Origin: Granulicella paludicola
GTDB lineage: Bacteria > Acidobacteriota > Terriglobia > Terriglobales > Acidobacteriaceae
Direction: 5' to 3'
Assembly: GCF_025685545.1 (NCBI RefSeq)
Contig: NZ_JAGSYC010000020.1
Coordinates: 1-64,000, forward strand
DNA length: 64,000 nt
How positions within the stretch are numbered: position 1 is the stretch's first letter; each line of letters opens with the position of its first letter. This document shows positions 14,674-60,785 of the stretch, in pieces. The notes under the pieces are model-generated. The model saw only the letters and a list, made by a program, of their open reading frames with translations. It ran no database searches and was not told the DNA's origin. The position numbers were made by a program, and so were the translations under genes.

Positions 14674-14993
14674 GGAATGTTCACATGCATCTGGGCGCAA
14701 CGCAAAGCATCTCTATCTTCGTGCCTGGCTGCCTGTTCCAGTATACCCGGACAATTGATCTCAATTCTCAAGATGCTGATTCAAAAAGAGTTGATGGGAT
14801 ATGTCTTGTTCAGCAAGAGACTATCCCCAGACTATTGCGATTATGCGACAGATTAGAGGAGAGTTCTCTCCGACACTGACTGTCAGCTTCTGCGCAGCAG
14901 GGAGGGACCCGATTCGCCTCAAGAGGAGGGTCAGGTCCGAAGGCCTAACTCGGGAATCCATCCCCGGTAGGTAAGAATTTTGGAGAGCCAAAG
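14674..14993. other. 320-nt divergent intergenic region with a structured-looking leader
   Basis: The region must hold the promoters of the CadC-like gene and of the second receptor. From about 14880 to 14970 it is rich in short inverted repeats: CTGACTGTCAG, GACCC paired with GGGTC around CTC/GAG, and GGTCCGAAGGCC. No known riboswitch class was recognised. GGAGAG at 14982-14987 is the receptor ribosome site. Confidence 0.35.
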
Positions 14994-18449: not shown

Positions 18450-18463
18450 CAACACCACCGATA

Positions 18464-18497
18464 AAGGCGCCCCGATCGACTATCATCGGGGCGCCTT
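18464..18497 (+). terminator. Strong hairpin after the second receptor gene
   Basis: AAGGCGCCCCGAT and its complement form a 13-bp stem with an 8-nt loop, 15 nt after the stop codon and followed by ATTTC. It is probably an intrinsic or partial terminator. Confidence 0.7.
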
Positions 18498-18501
18498 ATT
18501 T

Positions 18502-18553
18502 CGCAGCAAAGCTCCGCAGCAACGCCTCGCAGCAATGCTTCGCAGCCACCGCA
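18502..18553 (+). repeat. Four tandem copies of a 13-bp unit
   Basis: The unit CGCAGCAAxGCxT recurs at exactly 13-bp spacing at 18502, 18515, 18528 and 18541; the last copy is degenerate. The array fills the space between the receptor terminator and the GH13 gene. Confidence 0.75.
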
Positions 18554-18569
18554 AAGCCACGCGCTTTGC
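18551..18569 (+). promoter_or_regulatory. Hairpin just upstream of the GH13 start
   Basis: GCAAAGC and GCTTTGC are separated by 5 nt, giving a 7-bp stem that ends 23 nt before the ATG at 18593. It could affect translation initiation of the GH13 gene. Confidence 0.4.
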
Positions 18570-18592
18570 AGGAACGAGTCAGGGAATTGACG

Positions 18593-20467
18593 ATGTCGTA
18601 TTTTGGGCGGGAACTCGTTTGGGGGCTGGTTCTTGCCAGCTGTTGCACCATCGCACACGCTGAACTTCCAGCCGACTGTCACACCCACACCTCTGCTGCT
18701 CCGGCTCCGCACATCTGCAAGATCGATCCGCCCAACTGGTGGCCCGCCATGCCCGCGCCTATGCTTCTCGCCTATGGCGAAGGCCTCGACACGGCACAGT
18801 TCACCCTCAGCGACACCAACCTTCATCTTCAAAAAGTAGGGCACTCCGCCAACGGACACTACGCACAGCTTTGGCTTGCCGAAGACCCGTCGAAGCCCCA
18901 GACTATTCAGATCCGAGTAAAGAACAAGTCAGGCTCCACCGAAATCTCCTACACCTTCGCGCCCCGCCGCGCCGCGAGCGACGGCTTCGCAGGCTTCTCC
19001 TCCGCGGACGTTATGTACCTCATCATGCCCGATCGCTTTGCCGACGGTGACCCCGCCAACGATGGCCCCGATCACGCAGACGAGCTCGCAAAACCCCGCG
19101 GCTGGCATGGCGGAGACTTGCGCGGCATCACGCAGCATCTCGACTACCTCCAGCAACTCGGCATCACCACCGTCTGGATCACCCCCGTCGAAGAGAATCA
19201 CGAGCCGCAGAGCTATCACGGCTACGGCGCTACCGACCTCTATCGCATTGACGAGCACTTCGGCAACCTCGACGACCTCAAGGCCCTCGCAACCGCTCTG
19301 CACGCGCGCCACATGAAGCTCGTTCTCGATCGCGTGCCCAATCACATCGGCCCCGCGCACCCTTGGGTCAACGACAGCCCCGACCCCACCTGGTTCCACG
19401 GCACGCTCGCGCAGCACGATAAAGCCCAGGGAGAATTCGCTCCCATCACCGACCCTCACGCTCCCTGGCGCGACCAGAAGGACATCACGCAGGGCTGGTT
19501 CGCCAACGTACTGCCCGACCTCAATCAGGAAGACCCCGCCGTCGAGCGCTACCTCATCCAGAACACCATGTGGTGGGTTGAGCAAGCGGGAGTCGACGGC
19601 CTCCGCCTCGACACCTTCCCCTATGTCGGCCGCGCTTTCTGGCACGACTTCCACGCCGAACTCCACGCCACATACCCGCATCTCACCAGCGTCGGCGAAG
19701 TCTTCAACGGCGATCCCACCATCACCTCTACCTTCGCCGCTGGCGTCACGCGCACGGGTGTCGATACCGGCCTCGACACACCCTTCGACTTCCCCAGCTA
19801 CTTTGCTCTCCGTGAGGTCTTTCTCAAAGACGCGCCCATGTCCAAGCTCGCCGAAGTCCTTCGCCTCGACAACCTCTTCCCGCACCCCGAGCGTCTTGTC
19901 CCGTTCCTCGGCAACCACGACACCAGCCGCTTCATGAACGATCCCGCCGCCACCCTGGCGAAGCTGCAACTCGCGTTCACCGTGCTCACCACCATGCGCG
20001 GTATGCCCCAGATCTACTCCGGCGACGAACTCGCCATGCGTGGTGGCGACGACCCCGACGACCGTCGCGACTTTCCCGGTGGCTTTACGCCTGCCTCGCA
20101 CGATGCCTTCCAGTCGCAGGGCCGCACGCCTGAAGAAGCACAGGCGTACAACTCCCTGCAGAAGCTGCTCCAACTTCGCAGCACGACACCCGCTCTGCAG
20201 CACGGCACCGAGCAGCTGCTCTCCGTCGATAAAGATGTCATGGTTTATGCGCGTGTGTTAGAAAGTTCCGCGGGCACGCAGCGTGTGCTCATCGCCGTCA
20301 ACAAAAGCAAGTCAGGGCAGGACCTCTCCGTGATCACGTCTGAAACCACACTCGCAGGCCTCACCCATGCGCAGCTCCTGCTCGGCGATGGCACCCTAAC
20401 GCTCCAGCCGAACCTGCTCAAGCTTCACCTCGGCTCCGAATCGGCAGTCATCTTCAACCTGAACTAG
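18593..20467 (+). CDS. GH13 alpha-amylase-family enzyme (neopullulanase/cyclomaltodextrinase type)
   Basis: The 624-residue exported enzyme hydrolyses alpha-glucans. Signal peptide MSYFGRELVWGLVLASCCTI...AHA is followed by an N-terminal beta-sandwich resembling the cyclomaltodextrinase N-domain (DPPNWWPAMP-like opening). The catalytic barrel shows all four GH13 regions: DRVPNH, GLRLDTFPY with the nucleophile Asp, SVGEVFNG with the acid Glu, and FLGNHD with the stabiliser Asp. ATG 18593 was preferred because the signal peptide begins there; an upstream in-frame TTG (18566) would add nine charged residues. It lies 39 nt ahead of the GH31 gene and probably shares its transcript. Precise substrate (cyclodextrin, pullulan or maltodextrin) cannot be told. 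Confidence 0.9.
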   Translation: MSYFGRELVWGLVLASCCTIAHAELPADCHTHTSAAPAPHICKIDPPNWWPAMPAPMLLAYGEGLDTAQFTLSDTNLHLQKVGHSANGHYAQLWLAEDPSKPQTIQIRVKNKSGSTEISYTFAPRRAASDGFAGFSSADVMYLIMPDRFADGDPANDGPDHADELAKPRGWHGGDLRGITQHLDYLQQLGITTVWITPVEENHEPQSYHGYGATDLYRIDEHFGNLDDLKALATALHARHMKLVLDRVPNHIGPAHPWVNDSPDPTWFHGTLAQHDKAQGEFAPITDPHAPWRDQKDITQGWFANVLPDLNQEDPAVERYLIQNTMWWVEQAGVDGLRLDTFPYVGRAFWHDFHAELHATYPHLTSVGEVFNGDPTITSTFAAGVTRTGVDTGLDTPFDFPSYFALREVFLKDAPMSKLAEVLRLDNLFPHPERLVPFLGNHDTSRFMNDPAATLAKLQLAFTVLTTMRGMPQIYSGDELAMRGGDDPDDRRDFPGGFTPASHDAFQSQGRTPEEAQAYNSLQKLLQLRSTTPALQHGTEQLLSVDKDVMVYARVLESSAGTQRVLIAVNKSKSGQDLSVITSETTLAGLTHAQLLLGDGTLTLQPNLLKLHLGSESAVIFNLN

Positions 20468-20506
20468 GCCCTGCACTCATTACTGTCCTTGAACGGAGCT
20501 CTCCGC

Positions 20507-22972
20507 ATGAACGTCTCTCAAGCCTCTTTTCTTATTTGTTCTCTGTTGCTGTCGTCTGCGTGTTCGCAAGCCGAGACTTCTACTAACTCACATCACACCG
20601 ACTCCGGCATCGAGGTCTCCGACCAGACCGATACCCTGCGTGTCGACGCGCTTCGCGACGACGTACTCCGCGTCCGTCTCTATCCCCTCGGCCATCCAGC
20701 AGAGGACGCCTCCTGGGCTGTACTCCCGCAGGCACGCACCGCGCACATCGCCGTCACCTCCTCCGACGATGGCTTCAAGACCTCCGCGCTTGCCGTGCAC
20801 ATCGGCTCCGACCTCAAGCTCACCGTGACCGATCTCGCAGGCCACATCTTGCAGTCCGACGCCGCCCCCATCGCCCGCGACGGCGCAGGCTTCCACATCA
20901 ACAAGATTAAGTCCCCCGAAGATCACTTCTTCGGCCTCGGCGATAAGCCCGGACCGCTCGACCGCGCCGGTGAATCCTTCGTCATGTGGAACACCGACAA
21001 CTTCGGCTGGCAGGAATCCACCGACCCCATCTACAAGTCCATTCCGTTCTTCCTCGAGATGCATGAAGGTCGCACCCTTGGCGTCCTCTTCGATAACACC
21101 TTCCGCACCTGGTTCGACTTTGGCCACGAGCGCACCGACCGTTACACCTTCGGCGCTCCCGGCGGCCCGGTCGACTACTACCTCCTCTATGGCCCTGAGC
21201 CGAAGCACGTCGTCGAAACCTACGCCTGGCTCACCGGCCCCACGCCGCTGCCGCCCCTCTGGGCTCTGGGCTATCAGCAGTCGCGCTACAGCTACACCCC
21301 ACGAGCACGTCTCGAAGAGGTCGCCGCACGCCTCCGCGCCGACCAAATCCCCACCGATGTCCTTTGGCTCGACATCGACTTCCAGGAAAAGAATCGCCCC
21401 TTCACCGTCGATCCGCAGACCTTCCCTGATTTCCCCGGCCTCATTCACAAGATGACCGCCGAGCACTTCCACACCATCGTCATCACCGACCTCCACATCG
21501 CCCATCTGCCCAACCAGGGCTACGCCCCTTACGACTCCGGCGAAGCAGGCGATCGCTTCGTCAAGCTCCACGGTCAGGAATACGTCGGCACCGTCTGGCC
21601 CGGCCCTTCCGTCTTTCCTGACTTCACGCAGAAGAGCACCCGCGACTGGTGGGGCACCCTCTACAAGCAGTTCGACGCCGATGGCGTAGCCGGCTTCTGG
21701 AACGACATGAACGAACCCGCCGTCTTCACCTACCCCACCAAGACCATGCCCGACGATGTACAGCATCGCATCGACGAGCCCGGCTTCGTCAAACGCACCG
21801 CGCCCCACACCGAGATCCACAACGTCTACGGCATGGAAAACTCCCGCGCCACCTGGGACGGCCAACTCGCGCTGCGCCCCAACGTGCGTCCCTTCGTGAT
21901 GACCCGCGCCAGCTATGCGGGCGGCCAGCGATACGCCTCCACATGGACTGGCGACAACTCCTCCACCTGGAACCACCTGCGTCAGACGACGCCGCAGCTG
22001 CTCAACCTCGGCCTCAGCGGCTTCGCCATGTCCGGTGCTGACGTTGGCGGCTTTGCTGGCTCACCGTCTCCCGCCTTACTTACCAGCTGGCTCATGCTCT
22101 CAGCCTTCCAGCCCATCGACCGCGATCACTCCGCCAAGGGCACCCGCGATCATGAGCCCTGGGTCGATGGCCCCGAGCAGGAAGCAATCCGCCGCCGCTA
22201 CATCGAAGAACGCTATCGCCTCATGCCCTACCTTTACACCACCGCGGAGGAGACCTCGCGCGACGGCCTACCCATCGTGCGACCGCTGTTCCTAGAGTTC
22301 CCGCACGCCACCTCCGACAACCATCCGCTCGATAGCGACGCCCCGGGCGAGTTCTTCTTCGGCCCCAGCATACTCGTCGCCGCCTCGCCCTCACCCGATG
22401 AGGTCGCCCCCTACGAGGTCCATCTCCCTCAGGGCATCTGGTACGACTACTGGACCGGCGAAAAGCTCGATCGCCGCGTCGCCGTCGGCGCTCGCGATCT
22501 CGAAATCCGCGACGCAGCCAACAATGGCCCCAGGCCCGTCATGGTCCAGCCCAAAGAAGGGGAGCTGCCCGTCTACGTCAAAGGCGGCAGCATCGTCCCC
22601 ATGGCTCCGCTCGTGCAATCCACCGAGGAGCGCCCCGTCGGCCCACTCACCCTCCGCGTCTTTCCCGGCGACAACTGCGAAGGTACCGTCTACCAGGACG
22701 ACGGCGTAAGCTACGACTTCCGCAAGGGAAGCTTCTTCCGCCAGCACTTCACCTGCAGCGTCGCGGCCGATGGCGCCGTCACCGTCTCGATGGCCAAACC
22801 CGAAGGCAGCTTCAGGCCGTGGTGGACCTCTCTCCGCATCGAACTCGTCGGCCGCAAAACCTCAGGCACCGAGAAGACCGGCCGCAACCAGCCCATCACT
22901 GCAACCCCTCTGGGTTCGGCCGTCACTGTTACCAACGCAGAGTCCGTCACCTTTCCCGTAGCCGCAAACTAG
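20507..22972 (+). CDS. Glycoside hydrolase family 31 alpha-glucosidase
   Basis: The 821-residue enzyme removes terminal alpha-glucosyl (or alpha-xylosyl) residues. GH31 landmarks are the nucleophile motif GFWNDMNEPAVF, the acid/base region TWTGDNSSTW, and the N-terminal beta-sandwich with FFGLGDKPGPLDRAG. The N-terminus (MNVSQASFLICSLLLSSACS) is a signal sequence with a Cys at a lipobox-like place, so surface or periplasmic lipoprotein attachment is possible, though the -3 residue is atypical. ATG 20507 was chosen over an in-frame TTG at 20489. With the GH13 enzyme and the upstream receptor it completes a pathway from external malto-oligosaccharides to glucose. Confidence 0.92.
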   Translation: MNVSQASFLICSLLLSSACSQAETSTNSHHTDSGIEVSDQTDTLRVDALRDDVLRVRLYPLGHPAEDASWAVLPQARTAHIAVTSSDDGFKTSALAVHIGSDLKLTVTDLAGHILQSDAAPIARDGAGFHINKIKSPEDHFFGLGDKPGPLDRAGESFVMWNTDNFGWQESTDPIYKSIPFFLEMHEGRTLGVLFDNTFRTWFDFGHERTDRYTFGAPGGPVDYYLLYGPEPKHVVETYAWLTGPTPLPPLWALGYQQSRYSYTPRARLEEVAARLRADQIPTDVLWLDIDFQEKNRPFTVDPQTFPDFPGLIHKMTAEHFHTIVITDLHIAHLPNQGYAPYDSGEAGDRFVKLHGQEYVGTVWPGPSVFPDFTQKSTRDWWGTLYKQFDADGVAGFWNDMNEPAVFTYPTKTMPDDVQHRIDEPGFVKRTAPHTEIHNVYGMENSRATWDGQLALRPNVRPFVMTRASYAGGQRYASTWTGDNSSTWNHLRQTTPQLLNLGLSGFAMSGADVGGFAGSPSPALLTSWLMLSAFQPIDRDHSAKGTRDHEPWVDGPEQEAIRRRYIEERYRLMPYLYTTAEETSRDGLPIVRPLFLEFPHATSDNHPLDSDAPGEFFFGPSILVAASPSPDEVAPYEVHLPQGIWYDYWTGEKLDRRVAVGARDLEIRDAANNGPRPVMVQPKEGELPVYVKGGSIVPMAPLVQSTEERPVGPLTLRVFPGDNCEGTVYQDDGVSYDFRKGSFFRQHFTCSVAADGAVTVSMAKPEGSFRPWWTSLRIELVGRKTSGTEKTGRNQPITATPLGSAVTVTNAESVTFPVAAN

Positions 22973-22992
22973 ATTTGTCGATTGTGTGCATC

Positions 22993-23029
22993 CCGAAGGC
23001 TCGCCCATTCAAATTGGGCGGGCCTTCGG
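22993..23029 (+). terminator. Terminator hairpin after the GH31 gene
   Basis: CCGAAGGCTCGCCCA pairs with TGGGCGGGCCTTCGG (one G-T wobble) around a 7-nt loop, 20 nt after the GH31 stop. No T-run follows. Confidence 0.7.
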
Positions 23030-23072
23030 CGCAAATCTTGATGTCTTCGTCTCTCTTATCCCTTATTCGCGC

Positions 23073-23078
23073 TATACT
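23073..23078 (+). promoter_or_regulatory. -10 box 5 nt before the csp start codon
   Basis: TATACT ends 5 nt before the ATG at 23084 and no ribosome-binding sequence is present. This suggests a leaderless or near-leaderless transcript. No clear -35 was seen. Confidence 0.45.
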
Positions 23079-23083
23079 TCCGC

Positions 23084-23287
23084 ATGGCTACCGGCACAGT
23101 TAAATGGTTCAACGACTCTAAAGGCTTCGGCTTCATCACACCTGACGACGGCGGCGAAGACCTCTTCGCTCACTTTTCAGCTATACAGTCCAGCGGCTTC
23201 AAGTCGCTTCAGGAAGGCCAAAAGGTCCAGTTCGACGTTACACAGGGCCCCAAAGGCAAGCAGGCTTCGAACATCCAGTCTGCGTAG
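23084..23287 (+). CDS. cspA: Cold-shock protein (CspA family)
   Basis: A 67-residue single cold-shock domain that binds single-stranded RNA/DNA and acts as an RNA chaperone. RNP1 (KGFGFI) and an RNP2-like DLFAHFSAI are both present, and the N-terminal [11 protein letters not shown] is characteristic. The length is exactly that of the family. It is a monocistronic unit bounded by hairpins on both sides. Confidence 0.96.
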
Positions 23288-23364
23288 TCGTTGACCGACC
23301 ACGTCCTCGCACGAGCAGACTTTGCCGCGCGCTCTAAACTTCTGTGCCTTCGGCCAAAACATCG

Positions 23365-23399
23365 AACGGCCCTGTCTCTCGTTGAGAGACAGGGCCGTT
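23365..23399. terminator. Bidirectional terminator between csp and the Gly/His-rich gene
   Basis: AACGGCCCTGTCTCTC and its perfect complement form a 16-bp stem with a 3-nt loop. It lies between convergent genes and probably serves both. Confidence 0.85.
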
Positions 23400-23423
23400 T
23401 CATTTGCAGATGCTGACTAAGTT

Positions 23424-23894
23424 TTAGTGGTGTCCGCCGCCACCACCACCGTGGAAGCCGCCGCCGCCACCGCCGTGGAATCCAGGTAACGCGTGTTCCC
23501 CTCCGCCACCATGCGGAGCCTCGCCGATATGGCCTCGGCCATCACGAGCCTCGTTGCCTTGGAAGTGGTTGAAGGGTTGAGCGCCGCGACCGGGAAGGGG
23601 ACCGTGGTACCCGTAATGCGGGTCATAGCGATTGTCCACGTGGCCATAGAACCCGCGAGGACCATGGAACCAGGGACCGGCTCCGATAAAGAGGCCGCCG
23701 CCATCGAACCAGTCCGGACCGTAATAGCCATATGGAGCACAATCATAGGGTGCGTAGTCGAAGTAGCCGTAAGGGCAGACCGGCGCGACGCCTCCGACTC
23801 CGATACCTACGGAGATTTGCGCAGGAGCCTTCGCGCTCGGAATGAGCACAGCGGCTGCGATAGCGGAAAATACAAGCGGTTTCCAAATGGACAT
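23424..23894 (-). CDS. Secreted Gly/His/Tyr-rich protein of unknown function
   Basis: A 156-residue protein with signal peptide MSIWKPLVFSAIAAAVLIPS... and a Tyr/Gly/Pro-rich middle. The C-terminus is made of GFHGGGGGG-type repeats and ends in HH. No family was recognised beyond low-complexity secreted proteins. The start was set at 23894: AAGGAG directly abuts an upstream ATG (23903) with no spacer but lies 9 nt before this one. His-rich repeats suggest metal binding (inference). It lies 105 nt downstream of the CpxRA-like genes in the same direction and could be a periplasmic partner or target of that system. Confidence 0.65.
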   Translation of the reverse strand: MSIWKPLVFSAIAAAVLIPSAKAPAQISVGIGVGGVAPVCPYGYFDYAPYDCAPYGYYGPDWFDGGGLFIGAGPWFHGPRGFYGHVDNRYDPHYGYHGPLPGRGAQPFNHFQGNEARDGRGHIGEAPHGGGGEHALPGFHGGGGGGFHGGGGGGHH

Positions 23895-23999
23895 AACGTT
23901 CATCTCCTTGTCCCACTCTTTGTGAGATGCGCCGTCGGCTCACATTGTTGTGTCGTACAGCGCACGTATTCCTTATACGACATAAACGTCAACGGTTCC

Positions 24000-25379
24000 C
24001 TAGCATTCTGCCGGAAACAGCATCTGGATCGACGTCCCTCCACCTACCCGGTTTATTGCTTTCAGCGTGCCACCATGGAGCCGCACCGCGCGTTCCGTAA
24101 TCGCCAGCCCCACACCGAACCCGCCGGTTGAGGTGCTGCGCGCCATATCCACGCGATAGAACGGTCGGAAGATGTGCTCCAGCTCCGCCTCAGGAATCCC
24201 CGGCCCGTGGTCGCTCACCTCCACCATCACCATCGCCGACTGCACGTCCTGCGCCAAGCGGATCGTCACCTGGGACCCAGCCGCTGTATAGCGAATCGCA
24301 TTGCGCACCACGTTCTCAATCGCCCGATGCAGCAACTCCCAGTCGCCGCGAATCGTCGCCGTCTTCTCCTGCTCCAGCACCACCGAGCACGGCCGTTGCT
24401 GCGCCTCGTAATCCGCATCCGGCAGTATCTGCTCGCACAGCTCGTTTAGTGACAGCGTTTCGAACGTCGATGTCCGCTCCGTCGCCTCCAGCGAAGACAG
24501 CGTCAGCAGCTGCCCGATCAGCAGGTTCAGTCGCTCCGTCTCGCGCTCGATCCGGCCAAGATGTTCTTCCAACTCCGGCGCGGAGTCGTCCCGCGCCAGC
24601 TCCAGCGCCACACTCAGCCTCGCCAGCGGAGACCGCAGCTCGTGCGACACATCCCGCAGTAACAGCCTCTGTGCCGCCACCAGAGACTCCAGCCGCTCCG
24701 CCATGTGATTGAAGTCGTGCGCCAGTCCTTGGAACTCGTCCGCATGCTTCCCACTCGCAGGCGGTGCCACCTGCTCCACGCGAGCACTCAGATTCCCGCC
24801 CGCCAGCTCTCTCGCCGCTTTGCGCAGCCGCACCAGCGGTCGCGTAAACAGCAGCACCAGCACAAACGTCGTCAGTCCACCCACCGCAAGCGCCACCGGA
24901 ATCTGCGGAAACGCAAAGTGCAAAATGTCATGCCAAGGCGTGGGTGGCCTCGCTGTGGATGTTGAAGGCGGCTGAAACCACGCATACCAATAACTCACCC
25001 CATTGCTTGCCATCGCGGGGATGAACCAGACATAGCTTTTGTCCAGTGCTCGTCCTTCTATCCGATGCGGTGAGTGTGGATGCACGCCTTGCAAAGAGTC
25101 AGCTCCCGGCGTCTGGCACAGCGGCTCGCCATCGAGTCTCAGCAGCGCCGCTCCCGCAGGCTCGTTACGTGCTGCATTGTTGTTGAAACCGATGCACCCA
25201 CCCGCCTCATACGCATCCAGCGCCAGCCGTGCGTCGTTATGGAAGTGGCTGTCCAGCGCATCCCCCACCGTGTTGTGGTTCGGAAACCGCTGGCTCACAA
25301 TCAGCGCCGTCGAGATGATGTAAATCATGCTCTGCGCCAGCCAGAAAATCGCAAAGATCTTGAAGAATAATCCGCGCAT
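24000..25379 (-). CDS. Sensor histidine kinase, CpxA-like
   Basis: A 459-residue inner-membrane kinase. TM1 lies at about 7-29 (MRGLFFKIFAIFWLAQSMIY resembles the CpxA start), a periplasmic sensor at about 30-155, TM2 at about 160-180, then HAMP. The HisKA domain has the phospho-acceptor His246 in RDVSHELRSPLARL. The HATPase domain shows the N box ENVVRNAIRY, DHGPGIPEAE and GGFGVGLAI. It starts 3 nt after the stop of the response-regulator gene, so the two form one operon. By family it should sense envelope stress; the actual stimulus is unknown. Confidence 0.93.
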   Translation of the reverse strand: MRGLFFKIFAIFWLAQSMIYIISTALIVSQRFPNHNTVGDALDSHFHNDARLALDAYEAGGCIGFNNNAARNEPAGAALLRLDGEPLCQTPGADSLQGVHPHSPHRIEGRALDKSYVWFIPAMASNGVSYWYAWFQPPSTSTARPPTPWHDILHFAFPQIPVALAVGGLTTFVLVLLFTRPLVRLRKAARELAGGNLSARVEQVAPPASGKHADEFQGLAHDFNHMAERLESLVAAQRLLLRDVSHELRSPLARLSVALELARDDSAPELEEHLGRIERETERLNLLIGQLLTLSSLEATERTSTFETLSLNELCEQILPDADYEAQQRPCSVVLEQEKTATIRGDWELLHRAIENVVRNAIRYTAAGSQVTIRLAQDVQSAMVMVEVSDHGPGIPEAELEHIFRPFYRVDMARSTSTGGFGVGLAITERAVRLHGGTLKAINRVGGGTSIQMLFPAEC

Positions 25380-25382
25380 CGC

Positions 25383-26093
25383 CTAGCTCCTTCCGCCCGC
25401 AGCCGACCTGCGCAGCACCAGTTGATATCCCGTGCCGCGCACCGTCTTCACGCGTTCGTCGCCGCCGCCATCGCCCGCCAGCTTCTTCCGTAACCGGCTC
25501 ACATGCATGTCGAGACTGCGATCGAAAGGGCTGAACTTGCGTCCCAGCACCTCTTCCGCCAGCCCTTCGCGCTCCACCACCTTGCCCGGAGAGCGCATCA
25601 GCACCTCCAGCAGCGTGAACTCCACATCTGTCAGCTCGATCGGCTCGCGGTCCATCGTCACCGTCCGTGCTGCCGGATCAAGCACCAGATCCTCCACCAC
25701 CAGCGCCGTCGATCCACCCGCAGTCGCAGGCACTACGCCGCGCCGCCGAATCGCCCGTATCCGCGCCAGCAGTTCCCGCGCATTGAACGGCTTGGCCAGA
25801 TAATCATCCGCGCCCATCTCCAGCCCCACGATGCGGTCCACATCTTCGCCGCGCGCCGTCAGCAGCAGCACACTGTCGGTCGAACTCATCCGCAGCTGCT
25901 TCAACACCTCGAAGCCATCCATCCCTGGCAGCATCACGTCCAGCAGGATCATCGGCCAGTTGCGGCTGCGTGCCGTCTCCAGTCCCGTATCGCCGCGATG
26001 CACAGCAATCACGCGTAGTTCGTAGCGCGCCAGATACTCGGTCAGCATCTCGCACAGCTCCATATCGTCATCGATCAGCAGTATGTCTTCCAT
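25383..26093 (-). CDS. OmpR-family response regulator, CpxR-like
   Basis: A 236-residue regulator. The receiver domain has the acidic pocket IDDD, phospho-acceptor Asp52 (ILLDVMLPGMDG) and Lys101 (AKPFN). The C-terminal winged helix carries EVLGRKFSPFDRSLDMHVSR, which closely resembles the CpxR recognition region. GAGGA lies a few nt before the ATG. It is co-transcribed with the kinase downstream. The pentamer array at 26299-26333, upstream of this gene and of a divergent receptor, is a likely target. Confidence 0.93.
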   Translation of the reverse strand: MEDILLIDDDMELCEMLTEYLARYELRVIAVHRGDTGLETARSRNWPMILLDVMLPGMDGFEVLKQLRMSSTDSVLLLTARGEDVDRIVGLEMGADDYLAKPFNARELLARIRAIRRRGVVPATAGGSTALVVEDLVLDPAARTVTMDREPIELTDVEFTLLEVLMRSPGKVVEREGLAEEVLGRKFSPFDRSLDMHVSRLRKKLAGDGGGDERVKTVRGTGYQLVLRRSAAGGRS

Positions 26094-26108
26094 CGTGTCC
26101 TCGAGTAT

Positions 26109-26160
26109 CGCGTTGCCAACTTCGCTTTGAAGTAGCGCATTGCTAGCTTTGCTTTGAAGG
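26109..26160 (+). repeat. Imperfect direct repeat of about 25 bp
   Basis: GCGTTGCCAACTTCGCTTTG (from 26109) recurs as GCATTGCTAGCTTTGCTTTG (from 26138). It leads directly into the REP-like element at 26154. Confidence 0.6.
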
Positions 26161-26226
26161 GGCGGGGCTTCAGCCCCGCCATCAAACCGCTACCAGACAT
26201 CGGGCTTTAGCCCCGGAGGGAAGGCA
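26154..26226 (+). repeat. REP-like palindromic element, intergenic copy
   Basis: It contains two palindromic arms: GGCGGGGCTTCAGCCCCGCC (26161-26180) and CGGGCTTTAGCCCCG (26201-26215). The first 30 bases (26154-26183) are identical to the reverse complement of 56512-56541 inside moeA. Repeats built around GGGGCTTCAGCCCC arms are typical dispersed elements (inference). Confidence 0.8.
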
Positions 26227-26298
26227 TGGCAAGACTCTTTCTGCGTAATACTACTGCCCAACCCCTCCCTCCGCGCGTAATGATTGGTCACAACCCTC

Positions 26299-26333
26299 GT
26301 GACAATTCGTTACACAGCGTTACGCAATGTAAC
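26299..26333 (+). promoter_or_regulatory. Four pentamers spaced by 5 bp: candidate OmpR/CpxR-type binding array
   Basis: GTGAC, GTTAC, GTTAC and GTAAC start at 26299, 26309, 26319 and 26329, exactly one helical turn apart. CpxR boxes are GTAAA-N5-GTAAA, so this layout fits an OmpR-family regulator. It lies between the response-regulator gene (starts 26093, minus) and the receptor gene (starts 26395, plus). Confidence 0.6.
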
Positions 26334-26394
26334 CGCACTCCCTCTGCGCCTGCGCGACTCTGGAGAAGCTCCCCTCGAGCGCAAGGGAATCATC

Positions 26395-29283
26395 ATGAAG
26401 AAATCTGTTCGCCGCCTGGTACTCAACGCTTTGCTGTCACTCTCTGCCTTCGCCCCCGGCGCTTCTGCGATCGCACAGTCAGCCACTGGCATCGTCAGGG
26501 GCTCAGTCACTGACCCCTCGGGTGCCCTCGTTCCGCAGGCCAGCATCACCATCTTTAACACCAGCGGCTTCTCGCGCAAACTTACCAGTAGTGCCACCGG
26601 TGCCTTCGATATCCCTCGCCTCGTCCCCGGCCGTTACTCGCTCTCCATCACCGCCAAAGGCTTCGGGGCCGCGCAGGTAGACGATGTCGAAGTCTTCGGC
26701 GACAAGGTGACGCCCGAAACCGTCAAGCTCGATATCTCCGTGGAATCCGAAGTCCAGGTCACCGCAGAAAATCCCGGCCTCACCACCAGCCCCGATGACA
26801 ACGCGAATTCCCTAGTCATCAAGGACAAGGACCTCGCCGCTCTCTCTGACGATCCCGACGATCTCCAGAACGAGCTCACGGCTCTCGCCGGTCCGTCCGC
26901 TGGCCCTAGTGGCGCGCAGATATACATCGACGGCTTCACCGGCGGCCAGCTTCCCCCCAAGAGCTCCATCCGGGAAATCCGCATCAACAAAAATCCGTTC
27001 TCCGCACAGTACGACAAGCTCGGTTACGGTCGCATCGAAATCCTCACCAAGCCCGGCACCGACAAGCTCCACGCCTCGTTCATGTTCAACGGCAATGACA
27101 GCGCCTTCAACTCGCTCAACCCGCTCGTCACCAGCGAGCCCGCTTACTACTCCACCTTCCTCAATGCCAGCGCCAGCGGCTCGCTCAACAAATCGTCGTC
27201 ATGGTTCGTCAGCGCCTTCCGTCGCGATAACCAGGCCAACGCCATCGTCGCTGCCACCATCGCCGACGCCCTCAACAACCCCGTCGCCTACAACACCGCC
27301 GTCGCCAATCCGCAGACGCGCCTTGACCTCAGCCCGCGCTTCGATTTCCAGCTCGGCGCAAGCAACACCCTCAGCGTCCGCTACCAGTTCGACCGCGTCT
27401 CCTCCAGCAACAACGGCGTTACCGGCCTCTCGCTGCAGCAGCAGGCCTACAGCACCCTCAACTACGAGAACACCGTCCAGATCAGCGACACGCAGATTCT
27501 CAGCTCGAAGATTGTCAACGATCTCCGCTTTCAGTACACCGCTGACCGCGATACCCAGACCCCCAACAACACCACGCCCACGATCACCGTGCAGGGTGAC
27601 TTCGTCAACGGCGGCAATAACAACGGTCTCGTTCAGGACAACCTCGACAAGTACGAGCTGCAGGACTACGTCACCGCCGCCGAAGGCAAGCACGCTCTCA
27701 ACTTCGGCACCCGTCTTCGCCTCACCCACGAGGTCAACACCACGCGCTCCGGCTTCAACGGCAACTTCATCTACAGCTCCTCCACCGCCGCAGGCTCCAC
27801 CACCACCGCTCTGCAGGCCTACAACCAGGGCAACGGCACTCCCTCCGAATACGACGTCACCGTCGGCACGCCCACCGCTCGCGTTAACCTCTTCGATGCC
27901 GCCCTCTTCTTCCAGGACGACTGGACCGTGCGCCCCAACCTCACCTTCAGCTACGGTGTCCGGTACGAATCGCAGAACCGCATCAGCGATCATGCTGACT
28001 TCGCTCCGCGCTTCGCTCTCTCCTGGGCACCCGCCGCGCGCAACGGCAAGAAGGCCAGCACCGTCTTCCGCGCTGGCTACGGCTGGTTCTACGATCGCTT
28101 CTCACCCACCTACGTCCTCGATGCCATCCACCAGAACGGCGTCAACCAGACCTCCTACGTCCTCAAGAACCCCGGCTTCAACAGCGGTACACCCACCGCC
28201 GCGCAGCTCGCTCTCAGCACCGCGTCGCCCACGCTCTACTCCGTCGACCCGCACTTGCACGCCTCCACCAACATGGAAGCCGCCGTCGGCGTCGATCACT
28301 CCTTCGGCAAGGCCGTCACGCTCTCCGCCACCTACGTCAACTCGCGCGGCATCCATCAGTACAACAGCGACAACACCAACGCCTACCTCGACTACAACAG
28401 CACCACCGACACCGGCATCCGCCCCAACGGCATCAACGAGAACATCTACCAGTTCCAGTCTGGCGGTGTTTATAACCAGAACCAGCTGATGCTCAACTAC
28501 TCTGTCCGTGCCAAGAAGCTCTCACTCTTCGGCTTTTATCAGCTTGGCTTCGCCAAGTCCGACACCTCCGGCGCCAGCTACTTCGGCTCCAATCCCACCA
28601 ACCTCAGTGCTGACTACGGCCGCGCCAGCTTCGATGTTCGCAACCGCTTCCTCATCGGCGGAAACTACATCGCCCCCTTCGGCATCTCGCTCAGTCCGTT
28701 TCTCGTCACCAACTCCGGCTCCCCCTTCAACATCACCATCGGTAACGACCTCAACGGCGACAACCAGTACAACGATCGCCCCTCCTACGCCACGGCCACC
28801 AGCACCGACACTATCGCCACCTCGTACGGCACCTTCAATCTCGACCCCGGCGCCACGGCCAAGCGCATCGCCTACAATCTTGGCACCGCACCCGCTGAGT
28901 TCAGCATGAACCTCCGCGTCGCCAAGACCATCGGCATCGGTCCCCGCGTCGCAGGCGGAGCCGGTGGCACCAACGGCGGTGGTCCTGGCGGCCCCGGCGG
29001 CGGACCTCCGGGAGGCGGTCGTGGTGGCCCCGGCGGAGGTCTCGGCCCCGGCGGCCTTAGTGGCAACAACGGCCCGCCGCGCCTCGATCAGCTCGCCCCC
29101 CGCAAGTACGCCCTCACCTTCTCTGTCATGAGCCGCAACATCTTCAACCACGTCAGCTACGCTGCCCCCAACGCTGTGCTCGACTCTGGCGCCTTCGGCA
29201 AGTACCAGTCCATCGCCGGCGGCTTCTTCGGCTCCGCAGCCTCCAACCGCAGCATCGACCTGCAGGCCTCCTTTAGCTTCTAA
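26395..29283 (+). CDS. TonB-dependent receptor, Oar-like, with a Gly/Pro-rich insert
   Basis: A 962-residue outer-membrane protein: signal peptide (MKKSVRRLVLNALLSLSAFA...), carboxypeptidase-regulatory-like domain (about 35-115), plug and barrel ending in Phe (ASFSF). A glycine- and proline-rich stretch of about 42 residues (about 28950-29085) sits in a late barrel loop. ATG 26395 was chosen because AAGGGA lies upstream and a signal peptide follows; an in-frame start at 26284 would run through the pentamer array. It is divergent from the CpxRA-like operon, which may regulate it. No catabolic enzyme is adjacent, so its ligand is unknown. Confidence 0.85.
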   Translation: MKKSVRRLVLNALLSLSAFAPGASAIAQSATGIVRGSVTDPSGALVPQASITIFNTSGFSRKLTSSATGAFDIPRLVPGRYSLSITAKGFGAAQVDDVEVFGDKVTPETVKLDISVESEVQVTAENPGLTTSPDDNANSLVIKDKDLAALSDDPDDLQNELTALAGPSAGPSGAQIYIDGFTGGQLPPKSSIREIRINKNPFSAQYDKLGYGRIEILTKPGTDKLHASFMFNGNDSAFNSLNPLVTSEPAYYSTFLNASASGSLNKSSSWFVSAFRRDNQANAIVAATIADALNNPVAYNTAVANPQTRLDLSPRFDFQLGASNTLSVRYQFDRVSSSNNGVTGLSLQQQAYSTLNYENTVQISDTQILSSKIVNDLRFQYTADRDTQTPNNTTPTITVQGDFVNGGNNNGLVQDNLDKYELQDYVTAAEGKHALNFGTRLRLTHEVNTTRSGFNGNFIYSSSTAAGSTTTALQAYNQGNGTPSEYDVTVGTPTARVNLFDAALFFQDDWTVRPNLTFSYGVRYESQNRISDHADFAPRFALSWAPAARNGKKASTVFRAGYGWFYDRFSPTYVLDAIHQNGVNQTSYVLKNPGFNSGTPTAAQLALSTASPTLYSVDPHLHASTNMEAAVGVDHSFGKAVTLSATYVNSRGIHQYNSDNTNAYLDYNSTTDTGIRPNGINENIYQFQSGGVYNQNQLMLNYSVRAKKLSLFGFYQLGFAKSDTSGASYFGSNPTNLSADYGRASFDVRNRFLIGGNYIAPFGISLSPFLVTNSGSPFNITIGNDLNGDNQYNDRPSYATATSTDTIATSYGTFNLDPGATAKRIAYNLGTAPAEFSMNLRVAKTIGIGPRVAGGAGGTNGGGPGGPGGGPPGGGRGGPGGGLGPGGLSGNNGPPRLDQLAPRKYALTFSVMSRNIFNHVSYAAPNAVLDSGAFGKYQSIAGGFFGSAASNRSIDLQASFSF

Positions 29284-29291
29284 CGTAAGCC

Positions 29292-29321
29292 GCCCTGCCT
29301 GTCCTCCCCGACAGGCAGGGC
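29292..29321 (+). terminator. Terminator hairpin after the third receptor
   Basis: GCCCTGCCTGTC pairs perfectly with GACAGGCAGGGC around a 6-nt loop, 8 nt after the stop codon. Confidence 0.75.
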
Positions 29322-29349
29322 GTCACCGCACACGCCGCGAGGAACTCCC

Positions 29350-29517
29350 GTGACACCATCCCGCCCCTACCGCCTCATCGTCAAGCCTGTGAACCACCGC
29401 GCCCTCGCCATCATCGCGCTCGCTCACCTCGTCCTCTTTCAGCTCTTCCTCTTCGCCAATACTGACTACGCGATCGCCGAATCCATCCGCGGCTTCTGCC
29501 ATAACGTTTTGCGATAA
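29350..29517 (+). CDS. Possible small single-pass membrane protein (55 aa)
   Basis: A GTG-initiated frame of 55 residues with a basic N-terminus (VTPSRPYRLIVKPVNHRA) followed by one hydrophobic segment (LAIIALAHLVLFQLFLFA). GAGGAA lies a few nt upstream of the GTG. It sits alone between the receptor terminator and the DUF3861-like gene. No family is recognised. Its strongly hydrophobic helix and positive-inside N-terminus favour a real gene, but at this size coding status is uncertain. Confidence 0.45.
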   Translation: MTPSRPYRLIVKPVNHRALAIIALAHLVLFQLFLFANTDYAIAESIRGFCHNVLR

Positions 29518-29584
29518 GTTACGATCACTTCTTTCTCATCCAAAGCCGCGGCCGCATCATCCAATCTCCATCAAGGAGTTGCGC

Positions 29585-29896
29585 ATGTATCGCTACCGCA
29601 TTACCGTTGAAATGCTCTCGCCCGAACCCGCCACGTCGGCACCTCTGAAGTTCGAAACCGAAAATCACGACGACATCATCGCCATCGCGAACCGCATGAA
29701 CGGACGCTTCGATCTCGACGAGGAGTCGGCAAAATCCATGGCCATCGGCATGAAGCTCTTCAGCGAAATCATCCTCAAGAACCGTACCCGCGAACCCTTC
29801 ATCACCATTCGACCCGCCATCGCCGACTTCATCAAGGCCGTCAAAGCCGCCCGCCCCACGGAGCCATCCGAAGCCGAAGAAAGCAGCATCCAATAA
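29585..29896 (+). CDS. DUF3861-like small cytosolic protein
   Basis: A 103-residue soluble protein. The opening MYRYRITVEML, the FETENHDDIIAIANRM segment and the FIKAVK helix near the end match my memory of the DUF3861 family, whose function is unknown. ATG 29585 was chosen because AAGGAG lies 6 nt upstream; the in-frame TTG at 29579 immediately follows that site. The next gene begins 19 nt downstream, so the two may be co-transcribed. Confidence 0.65.
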   Translation: MYRYRITVEMLSPEPATSAPLKFETENHDDIIAIANRMNGRFDLDEESAKSMAIGMKLFSEIILKNRTREPFITIRPAIADFIKAVKAARPTEPSEAEESSIQ

Positions 29897-29914
29897 CGGG
29901 GAGGCTCTTCGCTC

Positions 29915-30298
29915 ATGCGTTCTATCTCGCATCTCCTCGCCGCTGCATTCTTCCTCGTCGGATTCACGGCCCACGCTCAGAAATCCGCTCCGCCGCCTGC
30001 AGCCGTGCCGCCTCCGCAGACACAAACACAGATGCCCGCTAACACCGCTCCCAGCGCGAAAGCAGACGTCGGTCACGGTGCCGGAGATATCGGCAAAGGC
30101 GCTGGTGGAGCCGCAGGCAACGTCGCGAAGGGAACGGGCAAAGGTGCCGTCGACCTCGTCACACTCCACCCCGTCAACGCGGTCGGCAACGTCGGCAAAG
30201 GCGTAGGCGTCGGAGCCAAAGACGCAGGCGTAGGCGCAGCCAAAGGCACCGGCAAAATCCTCAAGGGCACCGGCAAAGGCATCAAGCACATCTTTTGA
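29915..30298 (+). CDS. Exported Gly/Lys-rich repetitive protein
   Basis: A 127-residue protein with signal peptide MRSISHLLAAAFFLVGFTAH and a Pro-rich segment. Irregular repeats of the type GKGAGGAAGNVAKGTGKGAV follow through to the C-terminus (KGIKHIF). GGGGAGG lies about 11 nt before the ATG. The Gly/Lys/Ala repeats resemble glycine-zipper or surface low-complexity proteins. No function can be assigned. Its stop lies 6 nt from the end of the convergent VOC gene. Confidence 0.6.
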   Translation: MRSISHLLAAAFFLVGFTAHAQKSAPPPAAVPPPQTQTQMPANTAPSAKADVGHGAGDIGKGAGGAAGNVAKGTGKGAVDLVTLHPVNAVGNVGKGVGVGAKDAGVGAAKGTGKILKGTGKGIKHIF

Positions 30299-30304
30299 TT
30301 CTGC

Positions 30305-31219
30305 CTACTTCGTCGGCGCCTCTGCCGTTGGCACTGAGCAGCAAGACTTCATCACCGGCTGAAACTCCATCAACTCCACTCGAGTTCCATCCGGATCGTA
30401 AAAGTTCGCCTGCCACTTCCCGTCCTTGCCCATCTGCGGGCCATCATGCCGAGGGCTCAGCCGGTCCTCCCGATAGAGCGTCGTCACCGCTGCCTCCATA
30501 TTTGGCACGCCCAGCGAGAAGTGGTTCATCACGCCCAACGACCGCGCATCCACCTTGTCCACCGGCGTGTCCGATCCCTCGCCCACCATCATGTACTCCA
30601 CCCAGTCGTGCCCATCCGGAACCTGCAAGGAGATCCAGTCCACCTTGTCCGGCTGCGACCCGCCATACCAGTACGGACGGAACCCTAGCACCTCGCGATA
30701 GAACCTGTCCTCCGCCGCCTTGCTCTTCACCATGTAGCCAACATGGATGATCCGCGAACTGATCGGGGTCGTCGTCACCGCGCTCTGCCCACCCTGCACA
30801 AACTCCACGCGATTGCCTTCGGGGTCGTTCACTGCAAACCACCGGCTGCCATCGCTGGCTCGCTTCACCTCGCTGGCCCCGGCAAAACCATGCGCGCCCA
30901 GATACTTCCGCAGTGCCTCGGCATCTGCCGTGCTGAACGCCACACAGCTCTGCCGACTCAGGCCCTGCTCCTTCGGCAGCGGCAGCATCTCCACAAACTG
31001 TGTCGGGCTGAACGCATAGCGCACACCTTGCGCATCAAGGGGATCGGCGCTCCGGCTCGCTCCCAGCACATGCGCATAAAAGTGCTCACTCGCCGCCGCA
31101 TCGCTTGCATACACGCACATGTGCGAAATGCCGGTAATTGCCGGGCGCTGTTGCGCGCCAGCACGCATTCCAATCCCAGCTACTGCAAAGCCGAACGCAA
31201 GCCGAATCCATGTCTTCAT
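30305..31219 (-). CDS. Exported protein with two VOC (glyoxalase/bleomycin-resistance-like) domains
   Basis: The 304-residue protein has a signal peptide (MKTWIRLAFGFAVAGIG...) and two vicinal-oxygen-chelate modules. The first begins ITGISHMCVYASD and the second RIIHVGYMVKSK; the second contains FYREVLGFRPYW and ends with FYDPDGTRVELMEF. VOC pairs form a metal site that opens toward small substrates, but the reaction cannot be told from sequence. ATG 31219 was chosen because GAGGAG lies upstream and a signal peptide follows, although the frame is open to 31285. Confidence 0.8.
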   Translation of the reverse strand: MKTWIRLAFGFAVAGIGMRAGAQQRPAITGISHMCVYASDAAASEHFYAHVLGASRSADPLDAQGVRYAFSPTQFVEMLPLPKEQGLSRQSCVAFSTADAEALRKYLGAHGFAGASEVKRASDGSRWFAVNDPEGNRVEFVQGGQSAVTTTPISSRIIHVGYMVKSKAAEDRFYREVLGFRPYWYGGSQPDKVDWISLQVPDGHDWVEYMMVGEGSDTPVDKVDARSLGVMNHFSLGVPNMEAAVTTLYREDRLSPRHDGPQMGKDGKWQANFYDPDGTRVELMEFQPVMKSCCSVPTAEAPTK

Positions 31220-31332: not shown

Positions 31333-32298
31333 ATGCAGCAACACCCCGCGCAAGTCGACCTCGTCGGCGTCGGCCTCAATGCAACCGATACGGTGATCCC
31401 TCTCACCGAGTTTCCCGCCTGCGGTTCCAAGGTCGCCTACACCTCAGAGAGCGTCATGCCCGGAGGACAGGTCGCCTCGACCGTCGTCGCCTGCCAGATC
31501 TGGGGCCTGCGGACGCGCTATGTGGGAAAGCTAGGTGACGATGAAGCCGGTCGCCTGCACCGCTCCGAGTTCGACCGCCTCGGCGTCGACGCACGCATAG
31601 TCGAAGCTCCCGGCGCAGCCTCTGCGAAGTCCCTCATCCTCGTTAACTGGGACGGCGAGCGCACCGTGCTCAACCGCAAAGATCCGCTCATCGCGTTGCG
31701 TCCCGAGGAGCTCGATCGGAGCTGGATCACTTCTGCTCGCGCTCTGCACGTCGATGGTTATGACACAGCCGCGGCGACGACTGCTGCGCGTTGGGCGCGT
31801 GAAGCGAATATTCCTGTCATCGCCGACCTTGATGAGATCTACGATGGCGTCGAAGAGCTGCTCTCGAACATCGATTATTTGATCGTCAGCAAAGACTTTC
31901 CTGGACGCTTGATGGGCGACAACGATCCTGAGCGCGCGCTGCGCAATATGCAGACACGTTATGGAGCTCGTCTCACGGCGACTACGCTTGGTCCTGATGG
32001 TGTTCTTGCGTGGGATGGGAAGAAGCTGCATCATCGGCCCGCTTACTGTGTTCCTGTCGTCGATACGACTGGCGCTGGCGATATCTTCCACGCGGGCTTT
32101 ATTTACGCGCTTCTGCAGGACTGGCCGCTTGGCCGCCAGCTGGATTTCTCCTGCGCGGCGGCTGCGATGAACTGCACAGCGCAGGGAGCGCGGGGAAGCA
32201 TTCAGGCGGTTGCGGCTATCGAAGCTCTAATGGCCTCAACTCCCCGGTACGAACCCACCCCCCCCCTCCCCCCCATACTTTTGCACTCAAAGTCTTGA
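31333..32298 (+). CDS. PfkB-family carbohydrate kinase
   Basis: The 321-residue cytosolic kinase phosphorylates a sugar or nucleoside with ATP. The N-terminal VDLVGVGLNATD, the GG motif MPGGQVASTVVA and the C-terminal signature DTTGAGDIFHAGF with the catalytic Asp place it in the ribokinase/PfkB family. The substrate is not identifiable. The last dozen residues (TPPLPPILLHSKS) are unlike the family and are encoded by the left end of the dispersed element at 32264-32490, so the original stop may have lain further upstream. ATG 31333 is preceded by a -10 box rather than a ribosome site. Confidence 0.87.
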   Translation: MQQHPAQVDLVGVGLNATDTVIPLTEFPACGSKVAYTSESVMPGGQVASTVVACQIWGLRTRYVGKLGDDEAGRLHRSEFDRLGVDARIVEAPGAASAKSLILVNWDGERTVLNRKDPLIALRPEELDRSWITSARALHVDGYDTAAATTAARWAREANIPVIADLDEIYDGVEELLSNIDYLIVSKDFPGRLMGDNDPERALRNMQTRYGARLTATTLGPDGVLAWDGKKLHHRPAYCVPVVDTTGAGDIFHAGFIYALLQDWPLGRQLDFSCAAAAMNCTAQGARGSIQAVAAIEALMASTPRYEPTPPLPPILLHSKS

Positions 32299-32490
32299 TC
32301 CGAAGCGGGTTAGGTCTGGATTCAGAGGTTCGGAAGTCTTCCTAAAGGAGAAACCGGCTGCCGGACGCATTGAAGCTCCAACAGCCGGTTTCTATTTCTC
32401 TCTCTATTTCTATTATAGCGGGTTGAATGGAGTGAACATGCAACTCTATTCTGTTTAGAATGAATATGTTGCAGGATAAAGGGCTTGACA
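32264..32490. repeat. Dispersed intergenic element, copy 1 (about 230 bp)
   Basis: The element aligns with 54493-54730. Its left block (32264-32340) matches at a constant offset of 22229 and its right block (32351-32490) at 22240, or 22241 just 3' of the stem. In the last 90 positions I count 64 identities. It opens with a C-rich tract and CCCATACTT, contains a stem AAACCGGCTG/CAGCCGGTTT (32351-32360 with 32382-32391), and ends GGGCTTGACA. It sits between a plus-strand kinase gene and a minus-strand NIPSNAP gene, which suggests a bidirectional terminator or small-RNA-like element. Confidence 0.8.
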
Positions 32491-53455: not shown

Positions 53456-53519
53456 CATCCAACGTTGAGTTTGCGTCTTTTGCTGACGAAAGTTGACTCT
53501 AAACCCGCTCGAGGACTCT

Positions 53520-54491: not shown

Positions 54492-54492
54492 G

Positions 54493-54730
54493 ACCCCTCC
54501 CCCATATTTAAGTAGTCAAAGTATTGAGCGGTCGTGGGTTAGGTCTGACTCTTGGTGATGTGAAGTCTGAAAGTACTGGCTCTAAACAGCAGACCGGCTG
54601 GCGGAAGGGGATGTCCTCCTGGCAGCCGGTCTCTTTTGTTTCTCTATTTCAATTTTATCAGGTTGATAAGGGTAAACATCCAACTCTATTTCGCATGGAA
54701 TGAGGGGTTTAGGAGATTCAGGGCTTGACA
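54493..54730. repeat. Dispersed intergenic element, copy 2 (about 240 bp)
   Basis: This is the partner of 32264-32490. Shared blocks include CCCATATTT, TCAAAGT, GGGTTAGGTCTG, GAAGTCT, the stem AGACCGGCTG/CAGCCGGTCT (54591-54600 with 54623-54632), TCTCTATTTC, CAACTCTATT and GGGCTTGACA. Compared with copy 1 the stem has an A-T to G-C change on both sides, which keeps the pairing. It lies between egtD (plus) and moaC (minus); the right end encodes the last residues and stop of MoaC. Confidence 0.8.
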
Positions 54731-58777: not shown

Positions 58778-58905
58778 CGTATTCTTCCTTTCAAGTCCTG
58801 GCGGAGATCGAGCTCCATCGCTTCAGCAAGGTCAAAGTTACATGCAATCAACTGCCTGTATCAACTCCGAGGCGGCTGGATTGTTGCGATGGCGGGGGAT
58901 CGGGG

Positions 58906-59193: not shown

Positions 59194-59211
59194 GGTGCCT
59201 CTTCCTGGTAC

Positions 59212-60773: not shown

Positions 60774-60785
60774 CTGGGTATTGTC

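Follow-up and report, generated by a model that had tools for sequence, protein, structure and literature searches.

What kind of DNA lies in two similar spacers that separate converging genes in a contig of Granulicella paludicola, and what does it do there? Within the window, the whole 64,000-nt stretch of DNA that was analysed, the two copies span positions 32254-32490 (copy 1) and 54494-54730 (copy 2). The earlier note had described them as twins, and the alignment bears this out: they match end to end with a mean column identity of 77%, an 11-nt gap and short loop differences. Both lie between converging genes, as had also been stated, copy 1 being flanked by PfkB kinase and NIPSNAP genes, and copy 2 by genes for a histidine-specific methyltransferase (EgtD-like) and MoaC. 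The PfkB kinase frame enters copy 1 and ends at the TGA of the copy (32296-32298), and the moaC frame terminates at 54718-54720, within the right part of copy 2. The central stem is GAAACCGGCTG/CAGCCGGTTTC in copy 1 (32350-32360/32382-32392) and AGACCGGCTG/CAGCCGGTCT in copy 2 (54591-54600/54623-54632). The compensatory change reported between them, in which one A-T pair is replaced by G-C, is a true double change but a single event. Folding of the whole element beats 200 of 200 shuffles for copy 1, and is equalled or bettered by 64 of 200 shuffles for copy 2. The parts of the two copies are the following.

32254-32298, plus strand: left block of copy 1, with a C-rich run at 32254-32274, then ATACTTTTG..CAAAGTCTTGA to 32298 (profile R1, 68.4 bits, E 1.5e-18).
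32307-32338, plus strand: GGGTTAGG stretch and second small inverted-repeat region of copy 1.
32350-32392, no strand: copy-specific hairpin of copy 1, terminator-like (-25.0 kcal/mol).
32412-32443, no strand: core of copy 1, ATTATAG-N15-GAACATGCAA, whose minus strand reads TATAAT.
32481-32490, plus strand: right end of copy 1, GGGCTTGACA.
54494-54527, plus strand: left block of copy 2, with a C-rich run at 54494-54503 and CAAAGTATTGA at 54517-54527 (49.4 bits, E 1.3e-12).
54591-54632, no strand: hairpin of copy 2, carrying the compensatory pair (-28.2 kcal/mol).
54652-54683, no strand: core of copy 2, ATTTTAT-N15-AAACATCCAA.
54721-54730, plus strand: right end of copy 2, GGGCTTGACA.

The search for further copies that had been suggested finds far more than two. 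With copy 1 as the query, 57 matches are obtained in its own genome (G000), while R1, a sequence-only profile of the left block built from 32 copies, finds 76 places at E <= 1, of which 69 diverged copies, the two in the window among them, were kept at E <= 0.0067 and inspected together with their flanking sequence; alignment A2 took in 32 of the 35 full copies then known. The element is about 220 bp long, polar and of fixed layout. It is formed, from left to right, by a C-rich left end, one or more AAAGTCTTGA units, a copy-specific hairpin, the core ATTATAG-N15-RAACATGCAA, and the right end GGG(C/G)TTGACA. The left end itself runs from a weak GGTA through the C-rich run to ACTTT-loop-CAAAGTCTTGA and GGGTTAGGTCTGGACTT, ahead of the variable hairpin, and an A+T-rich stretch (73% A+T over 24 nt, n=36) connects the hairpin to the core. 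The gap within the core is 15 nt in 41 of the 52 copies scoring >=13. With at most one mismatch allowed, the right end is present within 1.5 kb in 59/69 copies, 57 of them within 400 nt, and its distance from ATTATAG is 69 or 71 nt in 24 copies and 91-93 nt in 16. Terminal inverted repeats are absent, the left and right ends being different, and at the left junction GGTA/TA is weakly preferred ahead of the C-run (n=50). Near-identical copies are also absent among the 57 G000 copies compared, the best near-full-length pair sharing 71% identity over 250 nt and the best partial pair 80% over 143 nt. Two copies have their right end 596 and 836 nt from the left block, and a cargo-bearing parent element, considered for these two long-spaced copies only, was dropped. 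To note, in locus L016 (G000 C22:331472-332319) the interval from a weak left block to the right end 836 nt off harbors a Cys/His-rich reading frame, some 240 codons long.

R1 matches occur in 14 of 41 genomes (G000 and 40 relatives), all from the same genus, with 1 to 89 per carrier; these counts, and the zeros, are lower bounds because the training copies of R1 all came from one genome and no more than 119-150 candidates were scored in each. Among the named carriers are Edaphobacter aggregans, Edaphobacter sp., Granulicella sp. and the Acidobacteriaceae strains KBS 146 and TAA 166. An exact-pattern search returned 43 loci, 29 of which were treated as Acidobacteria (some from genomes already sampled); the remaining 14, from scattered phyla, look like chance matches. 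Eight of the 29 (L153, L156, L158, L173, L174, L181, L184 and L185) come from CAJCIP01, a MAG whose Verrucomicrobia label is probably wrong, its contigs fitting G017 of this genus. In line with the earlier opinion that the element is not a known riboswitch or attenuator, Rfam yields no match in the window at the gathering score, and none at E <= 0.5 in four loci. Among the matches listed in the open-access literature, no paper deals with the element or with skew of the kind described below in Acidobacteria. By sequence alone this would be an ordinary-looking extragenic repeat; what sets it apart is its position, in two genomes, at jumps of the GC skew.

The two spacers belong to a directional element dispersed over the chromosome, which runs C-rich end first on the locally G-rich strand. 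Four-fold-site GC skew is strong in these genomes (mean absolute value per gene 0.39-0.54) and correlates at 0.83-0.93 between adjacent genes, whether or not these are on the same strand; genes and copies with too few informative sites (thresholds 20-40) were left out. The flank to the right of the element is G-rich on the plus strand in 65/67 G000 copies and in 57 of the 58 copies sampled from four relatives (G018, 19/19; G014, 19/19; G007, 16/17; G013, 3/3), and the left near flank is positive in 61/68 G000 copies. The alignment of element and skew holds for genes of both strands: in G000 the counts are 17/17 for minus and 41/49 for plus genes on the left, and 44/46 for minus and 17/18 for plus genes on the right. 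The orientation of the genes is itself unaligned, with a positive coding-strand skew in 103/258 (G000), 129/281 (G018) and 91/260 (G007) genes. A coding-strand artefact was rejected as the cause of the left/right difference because same-strand contexts exhibit it too, the skew rising from 0.45 to 0.64 where both neighbours are plus (n=12) and from 0.51 to 0.71 where both are minus (n=10). The 29 acidobacterial pattern loci behave likewise: the right side is positive in 23 of the 26 measurable (median 0.37) and the left near side in 21/27, while the median is 0.01 beyond 2 kb to the left (n=18). Exceptions are L169, L180 and L187, L151 being flat; the chance matches in other phyla offer four measurable right flanks, two of them positive, which is too few to compare. 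Skew does not rise significantly with the intactness of a copy (rho 0.18, p 0.14; right end present versus absent, p 0.09). Window copy 1 is the clearest exception, as its surroundings are of the wrong sign (-0.29/-0.23). In two blocks of the window the synonymous GC skew is extreme and of contrary sign, namely at 12433-31168 (mostly -0.4 to -0.7) and 53520-61820 (mostly +0.6 to +0.9), and no convincing minus-strand left block was found at the end of the negative block near copy 1.

At longer range, skew was followed in 20-kb stretches, 20 per genome chosen along the contigs of G000, G018 and G007, together with the window; single-strand values are quoted where the other strand had no sites. 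In G000 and G018 the element sits where a domain of G gain begins, which then fades over about 40 kb. Upstream of the 7 elements of G018, skew stays near zero between -16 and -2 kb; for the 15 elements of G000 this applies between -12 and -2 kb, the value at -16 to -12 kb being 0.26. In both genomes it reaches about 0.27 in the last 2 kb upstream, and is 0.5-0.74 to the right (G000, 0.49 at 8 to 12 kb). For plus-strand genes of G007 (4 elements), it amounts to 0.33-0.34 at -8 to -2 kb, 0.43 at -2 to 0 kb and 0.66-0.79 at 0 to 4 kb. When the nearest element of either orientation is taken and the three genomes are pooled, the profile reads 0.08, -0.02 and 0.08 between -15 and -2 kb, 0.32 at -2 to 0 kb and 0.52-0.61 at 0 to 8 kb, followed by 0.49, 0.37 and 0.31 to 40 kb and -0.10 at 40-60 kb. 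Counted instead from the nearest element pointing at the gene, the pooled means downstream are 0.56, 0.51, 0.41, 0.35 and 0.32 (0-5, 5-10, 10-20, 20-30 and 30-45 kb), and lie between -0.04 and 0.06 beyond 45 kb. G018 displays a saw-tooth, with skew falling from 0.66 to -0.10 at 40-60 kb, standing at -0.19 at -8 to -4 kb, and then jumping back.

The contrast between 0-10 kb downstream and 2-12 kb upstream is 0.534 versus 0.016 for the pooled data (G000, 0.54/0.02; G018, 0.52/-0.11; G007, 0.54/0.32). None of 500 random shifts of the elements reaches the observed step of 0.518 (shifted mean 0.00, sd 0.12). This shift control alone counts, as an orientation-flip control was uninformative, the statistic being nearly symmetric under flips. 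G007 has little or no step when the nearest element of either orientation is used (0.45-0.71 at 2-8 kb upstream, 0.53-0.67 downstream), its fading taken alone is non-monotonic (0.51 at 30-45 kb), and strong skew is also found in it at places remote from every detected copy (480 and 680 kb). The flanks of G014 are equally skewed left and right within the 1.5 kb read. Regarding composition, within 15 kb downstream in G000 and G018, G increases from 0.30-0.39 to 0.59-0.67, C drops to 0.15-0.20 and T and A are slightly lower, the G+C content of four-fold sites (GC4) rising from 0.72-0.78 to 0.79-0.85; G007 resembles them downstream, but GC4 in this genome is high (0.88) at -25 to -15 kb as well. 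The skew of noncoding DNA goes the same way, with 0.10-0.19 within 25 kb in G000 and 0.17-0.30 at 4-25 kb in G018, although in G018 it is near zero at 0-4 kb. Much ordinary replication skew includes a T-A skew, unlike the near-zero values found here (between -0.11 and 0.08).

The elements are also ordered along the chromosome. On G018 contig C2, 27/31 copies are oriented along the replication arm when the arm boundary is placed where the skew switches, near 0.8 Mb; the bias is weaker in G007 (22/33 copies), where the elements track local sign changes (16/17 right flanks). The G007 dnaA gene lies at 2.14 Mb, where the large-scale skew turns from minus to plus. If this site is the origin, the G-rich strand is the leading strand and most elements are directed away from it. 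The accepted view is that a bacterial chromosome has a single replication origin and that its skew changes sign there and at the terminus. We propose, with a probability of roughly 0.4, that the element is the polar start site of a DNA process that is one-way and strand-asymmetric, replication restart or initiation being the likeliest and our first choice because of the arm alignment and the saw-tooth. Each element would be the start of a process that treats the two DNA strands differently; the C-rich end, the direct-repeat units, the A+T-rich stretch and the fixed-spacing boxes would be its recognition parts, and the skew would have been left by repeated use over evolutionary time. The hairpin would be secondary and replaceable, and could act as a terminator for neighbouring genes. 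The element may have spread by insertion into the single-stranded lagging-strand template, which would explain its orientation along the arm but not the step. The link between element and skew is an association, and the step alone cannot separate a cause from a preferred location.

Copy 2 allows the boundary to be followed gene by gene. The skew domain at this copy is the following.

53131-61820, plus strand: domain of strong G-over-C skew at four-fold sites, starting about 1.5 kb left of copy 2 and extending to the right.

Along the upstream gene, which encodes FGE-sulfatase/DinB domains (EgtB-like) and has near-zero skew, values run from -0.22 to 0.19 and reach 0.40 at its end (53.1-53.4 kb); they are 0.44-0.82 along the methyltransferase and 0.85 past the element, remain at about 0.5-0.9 on to 61.7 kb, and are 0.11 for the gene at 62.3-63.2 kb. 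One could suppose that such steps are merely the edges of acquired zero-skew islands inserted left of the element, given that near-zero-skew blocks exist and that skew ends abruptly in places, as at about 62 kb in the window. At copy 2, however, the change is gradual, over 1.5-2 kb, and crosses a conserved EgtB-like/EgtD-like pair: the methyltransferase is near moaC in 22 of 26 relatives' loci and the EgtB-like gene adjoins it in 10 of the 26 (partial pieces at locus ends, 81-92% identity). An island edge is thus ruled out at copy 2, though at this copy only, and we regard it as very improbable as a general account. On the far side, the plus-strand skew downstream of copy 2 stops abruptly at 61820-62329, passing from 0.75 to 0.11 between neighbour genes.

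The same locus in relatives links the element to the sign of the skew. In G001, G014 and G019 the element lies at moaC in the opposite orientation, with its C-run against the moaC stop, and G020 has the units and right half of a reversed element without the C-run. Skew is reversed with it: moaC coding skew is +0.51 to +0.58 in these relatives (far side +0.80 to +0.94), as compared to -0.89 in G000. By eye, no element was seen at moaC in the other 18 of the 22 relatives inspected, loci L129-L132 having been left out of this search. G010 has a 6-nt spacer between the same genes. Thirteen other relatives have a moaC skew of -0.26 to +0.39; eleven of the thirteen are without an element seen, and G003 and G011 were outside the by-eye search. 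G013 stands at 0.34. Six more (G006, G007, G009, G015, G016 and G021) have strong moaC skew (absolute 0.54-0.80) although none was seen next to the gene; G007 does have an element in the right orientation 2 kb away. As for copy 1, neither a C-rich left end nor a right-end motif was seen by eye in the 400 nt after the kinase in 15 of 16 matched relatives (one of these stretches being only 10 nt long; match L146 was left out). Of the 57 copies sampled from G018, G014 and G007, about 8 have a neighbour gene in common with one of the G000 copies, in some cases in reversed orientation, a ninth (44% identity) being doubtful; G013 and G014 share 2/3.

Other readings have to be weighed against a polar start site. 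The bidirectional terminator, 3'-UTR element or small RNA proposed in the earlier note, with a minus strand bearing a promoter-like TATAAT at fixed spacing, finds much in the neighbourhood that suits it. With neighbour genes called by a home-made gene caller, 37 of the 69 junctions are convergent in element orientation, 12 have both genes plus, 10 both minus and 8 are divergent, the right gene being undetermined in 2. A left plus gene has its stop codon at most 7 nt from the matched left end in 39/51 copies, and the core boxes keep their 15-nt gap in most scoring copies. Hairpins with T-runs occur, and the hairpins are more stable than shuffles (mean -19.3 versus -13.2 kcal/mol; 54 of 57 copies taken in) and lie below all 12 shuffles in 25/54. 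The amplified, structured and often convergent element described initially is real, yet its stem is the most variable part and is not the main story. The G+C hairpin with its T-run is strong in many copies and weak in others, independent of context, with no gain where the left gene ends there (44 copies versus 13, p = 0.34), and a context-dependent terminator was dropped on this ground. Moreover, the nearest left gene is directed away from the element in 18/69 copies (a left minus gene starts 16-66 nt away in 13/18), and the spacing from ATTATAG to the upstream box is, we take it, unlike that of a canonical -35. A role in transcription predicts neither the polarity nor the skew step, and as the main story it has little probability. 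A non-autonomous mobile repeat, inserting single-stranded into the lagging-strand template as IS200/IS605 does and as has been proposed for REP/RAYT, would make the skew link a by-product of old replication-skewed blocks. The orientation bias along the arm in G018, the patchy copy number (0-89), the empty site of G010, and the flanking genes shared in part with reversed copies all favor it, and the alignment without a step in G007 fits it better than it fits a polar start site. It leaves unexplained why skew in G000 and G018 steps up from near zero at 2-12 kb upstream, at copy 2 even inside a conserved gene pair; near-identical copies are lacking, and a constant target sequence is not established. 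RAYT was rejected as the mobiliser, since the 1.5-kb flanks of 23 Y1_Tnp/RAYT (PF01797) loci in 7 genomes hold no clear element (L259 has a single left-block match with 3 mismatches) and copy number does not go with the number of RAYT genes. We consider a mobile repeat as the whole account somewhat unlikely.

As to what causes the skew, the chief competing idea is directed DNA transfer with biased repair. Recombined fragments would begin at an oriT- or pac-like element, and strand-biased mismatch repair would drive G over about one headful. The decay of skew to about zero by 40-60 kb suits this, as do a gain of G at the expense of C, T and A rather than by C-to-T change, and the rise of GC4 in G000 and G018. 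The arm alignment is not predicted by it, and viral sequences provide motif matches without the rest of the element: three viral left-block matches, on which a viral origin was dropped, and 16 viral core-motif matches, one of them with a left-block-like motif and without the right end. We judge a transfer or packaging start improbable. A plasmid origin was set aside, with one weak left-block match on the Granulicella tundricola plasmid (NC_015057.1:465376-465436). A doubtful contig classed as viral, L289 (IMGVR_UViG_3300035703_000046), has the core motif preceded at 154 nt by a left-block-like motif, and may be host DNA.

Known systems share some of these features with the putative start site. 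REP, BIME and REPIN sequences are described as extragenic, present in many copies, hairpin-bearing and tied to single-strand biology (PMC6006769, PMC3116915). The element is likewise extragenic, many-copied and hairpin-bearing, but it has an asymmetric layout of about 220 bp, no clear repeat beside RAYT genes and no near-identical copies. We know of no skew step at REPs. Like IS200/IS605-type MITEs, it is polar, oriented along replication and provided with a small inverted repeat near its left end, although neither a transposase nor a target tetranucleotide was identified for it. Chi and KOPS are polar replication or segregation motifs oriented along the replication arm; the element is strand-oriented in the same way, but is far longer, occurs in tens of copies, and sits where skew jumps. 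At its left end, G is enriched on the strand opposite to that of KOPS. Animal replication origins (N-domains) exhibit the same abrupt skew jump followed by fading with distance, whereas here the host is a bacterium, the effect is mainly in one direction, and a defined DNA element lies at the jump.

If a small element does mark one skew jump after another, the chromosome would have either many secondary sites of start or restart or a directed DNA transfer shaping synonymous sites over tens of kilobases, and skew-based origin finding may fail in this group. It is possible, and we hold it tentatively, that dozens of dispersed, mostly one-directional start sites of DNA synthesis (or strand transfer), each of 220 bp, wrote a genome-wide saw-tooth asymmetry by repeated firing.

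Some copies depart from the common layout. The two G018 copies inspected, L047 and L061, seemingly miss the full right half, yet the G018 skew step is sharp. By eye, the left block of six relatives' copies (L053, L054, L061, L064, L065 and L218) extends as a degenerate, iteron-like array of 30-45-nt units, AAAGTATTC...GGTTA.
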